This document shows positions 46,401 to 48,351 of a stretch of 64,000 nucleotides of DNA, in pieces; within the stretch, counting starts at the first letter, position 1, and each line of letters begins with the position of its first letter. The position numbers were made by a program, and so were the translations under genes. The notes under the pieces are model-generated. The model was not told the origin of the DNA. It made no database searches and worked only from the letters and a program-made list of their open reading frames with translations. Origin of the DNA: Maridesulfovibrio sp. (lineage in GTDB: Bacteria; Desulfobacterota; Desulfovibrionia; Desulfovibrionales; Desulfovibrionaceae); assembly GCF_963677005.1 (NCBI RefSeq), contig NZ_OY781616.1, positions 1,309,501 to 1,373,500 on the forward strand, read 5' to 3'.

Positions 46401-47477
46401 TTAACGGGGCGTCACATCCAGTATCGCGTTACCCGTGTCCCTTGAAACAGGGATGGGTTTGTAATCGGCGCGGGAAAAATCAAGTTTCTTGAGGTCTACA
46501 GTGCGCAGGGTCTGATCGTTATAGTCCGCGAAATAAAGCACACGATTGGTCAGATCCTCAATAGCGGTCCACTGGGTGTAATCGGCCTCTTCTCCCTTGG
46601 GAGTCTTATCTCTACTGATCCCCTTGATGACAAATATCTGCTCAAGCAGATGACGCGCCAACACAACAGCCTCGGCGGAATCCTTAGGCTTGTAGGCAAA
46701 CTGTCTGAGGATGGCAGTGCGCACAAACCGGGAAGGCGGAGTGCAGTCGCCCGGCAATCCGAGCAGGCCGGAGCCGTTGCCGGTGCCGGCAACGGTCATA
46801 CCTTCGAGCTTGAGTTCTTTCTGAATCATGGGCGAAAGGTTGACGTAGTTGCGCAGGTTGGCCCACTGCTTGGGCAGGGGCGGTTCGTTTGTCATGATGC
46901 CCAGTGGATTATCATAAAGATTAAGCTTTCCATCAATCCATTCGGCCACAATGCTGTTGCCTGCGGCATCGTGCACGGCAACGTGCAGAACCGGAATGCC
47001 TCCCAGTCCGGGAAGCTCATTTCCCCAGGCGAAAATTGTTGGTAATGCCTTCCGTACTTCAGCCACGGAACTGAAGTTGCCCAGTATCCAGTCCGGCAAA
47101 AGGGCTACATCAAGCGCCCGGTCTTCTTTCCCTTTGGGAACGGTCTGATAACCGACTGAAGGGAGCCACAGGAACTTGGCCGAGAGGCCTTTTTCATTCA
47201 TTCCGTCCGATGACTTTTCCTGTCCGAGAACGGATAAACCGACGAATCCGTAACGCTGTTTCCATTTGAGCCCCTTCTTTTTACCGGGGGCTTCAGAAAC
47301 CCACTGTTTACCTCTCGGATAAACGGTTACAAGGGCATGGTCATCAATGGCAAAATCCATGGACCGGCCGTTAACCACGGTACCGTCTGCAGCCTTGACC
47401 ACAAAATCGGTGCAGGCCATGGCCGGAGCGGCACAGAATGTCAAAGTCAGGATGAATAATATTATGATGCGGAACAT
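46401..47477 (-). CDS. Penicillin V acylase / choloylglycine hydrolase family protein
   Basis: A 358-residue Ntn-hydrolase. The signal peptide MFRIIILFILTLTFCAAPAMA ends just before Cys22, the expected N-terminal nucleophile (ACTDFVVKAADG). Arg (NGRSMDF) and Asp (FAIDDH) of the active site follow; NELPGLGGIPVLHVAVHDAAG and TNEPPLPKQWANLRNY fit the family. The Gram-negative periplasmic group acts on penicillin V or acyl-homoserine lactones more than on bile salts. Substrate here unknown. Single gene. Confidence 0.88.
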   Translation of the reverse strand: MFRIIILFILTLTFCAAPAMACTDFVVKAADGTVVNGRSMDFAIDDHALVTVYPRGKQWVSEAPGKKKGLKWKQRYGFVGLSVLGQEKSSDGMNEKGLSAKFLWLPSVGYQTVPKGKEDRALDVALLPDWILGNFSSVAEVRKALPTIFAWGNELPGLGGIPVLHVAVHDAAGNSIVAEWIDGKLNLYDNPLGIMTNEPPLPKQWANLRNYVNLSPMIQKELKLEGMTVAGTGNGSGLLGLPGDCTPPSRFVRTAILRQFAYKPKDSAEAVVLARHLLEQIFVIKGISRDKTPKGEEADYTQWTAIEDLTNRVLYFADYNDQTLRTVDLKKLDFSRADYKPIPVSRDTGNAILDVTPR

Positions 47478-47582
47478 GATATCTCCTAAGGTAAATTTTG
47501 ATACAGTATAAACCGGTTAGCTAAGCACCAGAGTAGGCCACCGACCTTATGTTGTCGACACGAAAGTAAGACATTTTTATGA

Positions 47583-47623
47583 CATAAAAAAGGAAAGCAG
47601 GCAGTAAACACCTGCTTTCCTTT
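47583..47623 (-). terminator. Strong rho-independent terminator of the candidate sRNA
   Basis: Minus strand: 13-bp perfect stem (AAAGGAAAGCAGG with CCTGCTTTCCTTT, 47589-47623), 9-nt loop, then TTT; in total a run of six U. It is not at the 3' end of any annotated gene. Confidence 0.85.
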
Positions 47624-47666
47624 GAGTTCGGCAAAAAAGATAATCAACTGCAGCTGAGTATAATTC
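47583..47666 (-). ncRNA. Candidate small RNA (~84 nt)
   Basis: A promoter (47673-47700) fires toward a strong rho-independent terminator (47583-47623) with only ~84 nt between predicted start (~47666) and end. No ribosome binding site or conserved frame is in it; a 62-codon frame there overlaps the -10 box. It lies between divergent genes and would not end either of them. Start and length are predictions. Confidence 0.5.
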
Positions 47667-47672
47667 ATATTC

Positions 47673-47700
47673 ATTATAACAGCAGCATATTACTGTACAA
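47673..47700 (-). promoter_or_regulatory. Sigma70-like promoter of the candidate sRNA
   Basis: Minus strand TTGTAC (47700-47695), 16 bp, TATAAT (47678-47673). The -10 is a perfect consensus. Confidence 0.6.
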
Positions 47701-47832
47701 TTTCCATAAACGAGAGCATTCTGCGCATATATTTTCAGGAAATATCAAAAGCGCTTTTCTCTACATTGAAAAAATTCCCGACTAAAATTTCTCCAACAGA
47801 AGAGAAGAACACAACAAGGACAGTACAAGATC

Positions 47833-48351
47833 ATGACAGATATCACCATACGGCAGCTTGAATCCATCTCAACCTCACGGCTGAATGAATTGTGCACCCT
47901 CCTTATTGATACCGTCGAAGGCGGTGCTTCCGTTGGTTTCCTGAGCCCGATTGCCATGGACACGGCCAAAAGCTACTGGCTCAAAGTTGAATCCGAACTG
48001 GAATCAGCAACCGACCTTCTTGTTGCTGAAAAAAACGGACAAACAGTCGGCTCTGTTCAGATTGTATATTGTACCAAAGAAAATGGTGCACATAGAGGCG
48101 AGGTACAAAAACTATTTGTTCTGCAAAGCAACCGAAGGCATGGGGTTGCGACCAGATTAATGCTTGAAGCCGAAAAAAGGGCTGCCCAAAAAGGAAAGAC
48201 TCTACTCACACTTGATACACAGGAAAACAGCTCTGCTGAAAAGCTTTACGAAAAGCTTGGGTGGCAGAAAGCGGGTGTAATTCCGGACTATGCATGCAGC
48301 CCGAACGGGAAACTGCATGGAACTACACTATTCTTTAAGCATGTATACTGA
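47833..48351 (+). CDS. GNAT N-acetyltransferase
   Basis: A 172-residue GNAT: VGSVQIVY, VQKLFVLQSNRRHGVATRLM acetyl-CoA loop (RRHGVA, ~105-110), LDTQENSSAEKLYEKLGWQKAG. The IDTVEGGASVGFL segment near the N-terminus is common in this subfamily. Substrate unknown. AAGGA lies 13 nt before the ATG, a little far. Confidence 0.88.
   Translation: MTDITIRQLESISTSRLNELCTLLIDTVEGGASVGFLSPIAMDTAKSYWLKVESELESATDLLVAEKNGQTVGSVQIVYCTKENGAHRGEVQKLFVLQSNRRHGVATRLMLEAEKRAAQKGKTLLTLDTQENSSAEKLYEKLGWQKAGVIPDYACSPNGKLHGTTLFFKHVY

Follow-up and report, generated by a model that had tools for sequence, protein, structure and literature searches.

The minus strand of a divergent spacer in Maridesulfovibrio sp. is predicted to encode a discrete short RNA of about 82 nt, a reading to which we give a probability of roughly one half. 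The spacer lies in the window (the whole 64,000-nt stretch of DNA that was analysed, to which positions refer) between a hydrolase gene and an acetyltransferase gene (Table 1). That the site falls between divergent genes and that its signals are on the minus strand, as stated in the original prediction, was borne out by the sequence and the gene calls. A sigma-70-type extended -10 promoter would start the RNA at about 47666 and an intrinsic terminator would end it at about 47585, so that the product would be about 82 nt long, close to the ~84 nt first proposed. It would consist of a 43-nt 5' part that folds loosely, followed by a stable terminator hairpin, and its range would not extend beyond this species or a few close relatives. 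We infer its transcription, its ends and its stability from these DNA signals. A short terminated transcript, as originally suggested, is the simplest reading, although that suggestion overlooked the hydrolase gene downstream on the same strand and the candidate proved to be unconserved.

Table 1. Features of the divergent spacer and its two neighbour genes (window positions)
Feature	Position	Strand	Description or basis
Linear amide C-N hydrolase, choloylglycine hydrolase family	46401-47477	minus	Pfam PF02275, E 3.2e-59
Divergent spacer	47478-47832		355 nt, 36% GC; between hydrolase gene (-) and acetyltransferase gene (+)
Predicted RNA, about 82 nt	47584-47666	minus	Both ends inferred: start 7 nt past the -10, end in the U-tract
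Run of six T	47586-47591	minus	Sequence and fold; three pair with A's of the stem, three free, then ATG
Terminator hairpin, 13 bp, perfect, 9-nt loop	47589-47623 (47623-47611 / 47601-47589)	minus	Inverted repeat, terminator scan
43-nt 5' part of the predicted RNA	47624-47666	minus	Small hairpin UCAGC/GUUGA and mostly unpaired UUUUGCCGAACUC; pair probabilities
-10 hexamer TATAAT, perfect	47673-47678	minus	Read from sequence, pattern match
Extended -10 TGT-TATAAT, TGTTATAAT	47673-47681	minus	Exact match to TGNTATAAT
-35-like TTGTAC	47695-47700	minus	Read from sequence, pattern match; 16-nt spacer to the -10
GNAT-family acetyltransferase, divergent neighbour	47833-48351	plus	Pfam PF00583, E 2.8e-14

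Terminator hairpin

The terminator is far beyond chance. Its 13-bp stem, claimed in the original prediction, is indeed a perfect inverted repeat, and the observed terminator energy is -21.3 kcal/mol. When the 355-nt spacer was shuffled 1000 times with dinucleotides preserved, terminators on the minus strand reached -9 kcal/mol in 13 shuffles, -12 kcal/mol in one and -15 kcal/mol in none. These counts make it very improbable that a chance hairpin and a chance -10 have come together in an AT-rich spacer, even though the promoter would not be rare on its own. The segment 47583-47673 folds at -25.6 kcal/mol (z -3.60). From the expected start at about 47666, the stem begins after 43 nt and not after the 50 nt originally given; this distance fits a short RNA. 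The claim that no gene ends there agrees with the gene calls, which accept no minus-strand ORF terminating before the stem.

Six U were said to follow the stem. Six T are present, of which three pair inside the stem and three are free. This short free U-tract (three U, then A) counts against a small RNA, and it is overlapped by a palindrome that could be an operator instead. A lax scan calls the hairpin on the plus strand too (-18.6, tail GAGTTCGG) because it counts the T's inside the stem; the first scan lists the minus strand only.

The palindrome is perfect over 17 nt (8-1-8, TTTTTATGwCATAAAAA, 47574-47590), and one half of it is the terminator U-tract. Its core, with up to two mismatches allowed, occurs once in the window against 0.43 expected. 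Exact copies were present in seven of the 92 loci compared, six of which are this same place and one of which (L010) is in another family. Judged from its sequence, the palindrome is a putative operator and may bind a regulator.

Promoter signals

The perfect TATAAT and the TTGTAC at 16-nt spacing are present as originally described (47700-47673); the extended -10 element went unmentioned in that description. TTGTAC shares three of six bases with TTGACA. The first promoter scan demanded at least four of six matches in each hexamer and for this reason did not list the pair, and the promoter score favoured the overlapping TGTACA (4/6) as the -35 element, at a spacing of 15. To call the arrangement "textbook" was an overstatement, given a -35 of 3/6 and a free U-tract of only three U.

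The extended -10 site is the top-scoring promoter-like site upstream of the stem. When the 209 nt preceding the stem were shuffled, 41 of 2000 sequences scored as high, and with the nearest 120 nt 56 of 2000 did. Within the window, TATAAT occurs 32 times (22.65 expected), TTG-N19-TATAAT twice (0.52 expected) and TGNTATAAT twice (1.38 expected); by these counts, the promoter alone is unremarkable. Divergent spacers contain 33 copies of TATAAT in 39.0 kb (both strands counted), compared with eight in 25.8 kb of convergent spacers, a higher density that favours the small RNA. Codirectional spacers contain 16 copies in the sense direction and 20 in the other, each in 36.1 kb. Because sense-direction copies are no commoner in these spacers, promoter use of TATAAT is not firmly shown. 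No sigma-54 site was found in 47401-47900, either as GG-N10-GC with 7/10 matches or with up to two mismatches. The promoter evidence is less sure than the terminator evidence.

Orphan terminators elsewhere in the same genome

The window and twenty 20-kb stretches of the same genome were sampled, with genes called by a home-made dicodon gene finder. At a strength of -15 kcal/mol or better, 52 of 68 terminator calls follow a gene (31 convergent, 21 codirectional). The other 16 comprise nine in spacers with both flanking genes on the other strand, five in divergent spacers and two inside genes. The window hairpin is called on both strands, so the five divergent-spacer calls represent four places in 45 divergent spacers, a figure that is approximate owing to the home-made gene calls and that includes calls made with the lax tail rule, which counts T's inside the stem.

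At one of the other three places (L055:4906), the terminator comes after a tRNA that is split by a group I intron. The remaining two, L051:14062 and L053:9165, follow the short Phe-rich ORFs MNTREAYFFFFSFFSFTSPVVWRCLLA and MFNHDFFTFFFFFFFKTEI, respectively, and have alternative folds resembling those of amino-acid attenuators; by this analogy, both look like Phe leader attenuators. With two apparent Phe leaders and one tRNA among the other three places, terminators in divergent spacers have a purpose in this small sample, and attenuation of a downstream gene is their commonest job in it.

These loci have further features of their own. The intron at L055:4601-4899 (own genome C1, about 1104601-1104899) matches RF00028 at 69.9 bits within the tRNA; judged by eye, splicing leaves the anticodon loop CTTCTAA, so that the molecule would be an Arg tRNA with anticodon UCU. 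At L053:9158-9305 (own genome C1, about 709158-709305, minus strand), the Phe-rich ORF and its terminator are followed by a gene for an AMP-binding-domain protein and by an ACT-pair protein. At L051:14055-14203 (own genome C1, about 314055-314203, minus strand), they are followed by a 53-aa ORF and a sodium:solute symporter.

A possible leader of the hydrolase gene

The protein encoded downstream of the hairpin does not reach the curated cut-offs that NCBIfam sets for its penicillin V amidase and bile salt hydrolase models, and a scan of genome contigs with it gave seven distant relatives, which were set aside. Since its gene lies downstream on the same strand, the main rival to a discrete small RNA is a terminated 5' leader, or attenuator. 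Positions 47673-47700 would then be the hydrolase promoter, and the hairpin would set the passage of polymerase into 46401-47477. We consider this possible but doubtful. The end of the stem is 111 nt before the hydrolase ATG, on the same strand. The extended -10 promoter is the sole minus-strand site that scores at least 8.7 between the two divergent starts, and the promoter-like sites seen nearer to the gene are weak; TATACT at 47510, for example, has a -35 of 2/6. Two of the three comparable orphan terminators are the apparent Phe attenuators described above, and a 62-codon minus-strand ORF (47674-47486) crosses the stem and stops 8 nt upstream of the hydrolase ATG.

However, an ORF of this length arises in 56 of 1000 shuffles and its 62-aa product has no Pfam or NCBIfam match, so we rejected it as coding. 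The stem is not preceded by a leader peptide that has control codons and a stop. The competing fold is weak (-9.1 vs -25.2 kcal/mol) and lacks the alternating segments seen in the two Phe leaders, although the energy gap itself separates little (16.1 here, 15.4 at L053 and 11.8 at L051). Rfam yielded no riboswitch match, either at the gathering score or at E up to 10.

The hydrolase loci of other genomes also speak against a leader. A part of the matches listed, comprising 33 loci of the hydrolase family with our own included, was examined for terminators up to 400 nt upstream. Six of the 32 other loci have one; five of these terminators lie 2-82 nt after the end of a same-strand ORF, and the sixth follows a tRNA-like end. 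Eleven of the loci are hydrolase orthologues (57-81% identity), of which two, both among those six, have an upstream terminator. That of L077 lies 20 nt after a same-strand ORF, and that of L073 lies 82 nt after one, less surely because of an overlapping ORF on the opposite strand. At L083, the sixth case (reverse-complement, about 1025-1214), two terminator hairpins in a row come after what resembles the 3' end of a tRNA, and the second has no evident gene before it. If the discrete short RNA is made as we propose, a minor read-through product could still feed the hydrolase gene.

Conservation of the locus

Joint conservation of promoter and terminator, the check named beforehand in the original prediction, was not found. 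The 161-nt element matches only one of 288 family genomes (E 0.001), its own, in a set with one genome per species. A search with the whole spacer against 148 genomes, including its own (E up to 10), gave two non-self matches below 0.001, both in one genus of another family. The match at L010 (26 nt) spans just the U-tract and the palindrome, without promoter or stem, and that at L011 (35 nt) lies inside a long ORF; both were taken as chance matches in AT-rich DNA. Further copies in the same genome were limited to short matches with E of at least 0.09, in the first of which the hairpin matches its own reverse complement. There was no match in plasmids (2-kb query), phages (element) or viral contigs (exact 20-base stretch). 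Against Rfam, the window as a whole had no match at the gathering score; 47400-47850, searched at E up to 10, had 11 sub-threshold matches (E 0.08-9), none of them usable.

The locus is variable across relatives. A search of 395 phylum genomes at 1e-20 found no relative of the acetyltransferase outside its own genome (394 others), and its one weak match in the genus has 35% identity (E 3.7e-6). The diguanylate cyclase encoded after it was found in one of 16 other genus genomes at 1e-60. Given this variability, failure to find the RNA elsewhere argues only weakly against it. A species-specific RNA is compatible with that absence, because the locus is variable and each species is represented by one genome. 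Conservation lends the RNA no positive support. A species-specific 82-nt product might also act on mRNAs while read-through, perhaps with a palindrome-bound regulator, expresses the hydrolase; we hold this fuller version to be quite improbable.

The same observations would suit a terminator that is a relic of a lost gene, or one whose only role is to block stray transcription coming from the acetyltransferase side; no functional small RNA would then exist. The acetyltransferase and the next gene are rare in relatives, and the candidate RNA shares their lack of conservation. We nevertheless regard such a relic or insulator as unlikely, as a promoter-like site is located upstream of the terminator at the distance of a short RNA, and no coding remnant was recognised, including in the 62-aa ORF. 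Literature searches listed no paper on this locus; for another sulfate reducer, a computational survey of non-coding RNAs exists (PMC11124144).

RNA chaperones and targets

No Hfq was found in the 17 genus genomes searched (our own and 16 relatives), while the same search matched five of 14 control genomes. ProQ was likewise not found in our own genome, and control genomes gave matches. Any action in trans would proceed without Hfq or ProQ. If the short RNA acts at all, it would most likely be an Hfq-independent antisense-type small RNA that pairs by means of the mostly unpaired segment UUUUGCCGAACUC.

Target prediction, also proposed at the outset, did no better than shuffled RNAs. The best duplex among 359 start regions reached -29.7, and 37 of 100 shuffled RNAs reached the same value; these gene starts were drawn from the window and the 20 stretches, which make up 464 of 4259 kb. 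We infer a function for the candidate RNA from its class alone. Should it be expressed, it would add another short intergenic RNA to a lineage in which Hfq was not found, and it could be a case on which to test regulation without a chaperone. On its own it is an ordinary candidate and changes no general picture.

Comparison with known systems

The Hfq-dependent antisense small RNAs of enterobacteria, for example MicC, are similar in size and also have a 5' single-stranded stretch and a terminator hairpin. MicC (RF00121) was among the sub-threshold Rfam matches; its score of 19.4 bits (E 2) falls far short of the gathering score of 90. The host genus also differs from those of Hfq-dependent small RNAs, with Hfq found in none of its 17 genomes searched.

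Like the apparent leader-peptide attenuators at L051 and L053, the candidate has an orphan terminator within a divergent spacer; in the three cases a gene on the same strand begins 53-111 nt beyond it. It differs from both in having neither a stop-ended leader peptide before the stem nor alternating segments.

The arrangement also resembles that of the intergenic small RNAs predicted by the sRNAscanner/sRNAPredict approach, which combines orphan promoters with Rho-independent terminators at a spacing of 40-350 nt (PMC2916834). The abstract for that tool puts the estimated share of genuine RNAs among high-scoring hits at about 40% (PMC2916834). Our candidate differs in being known from DNA alone and in belonging to a genus without a recognised Hfq. 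Like the RNAs described for that approach, it consists of an intergenic promoter and terminator whose spacing falls within 40-350 nt (PMC2916834).
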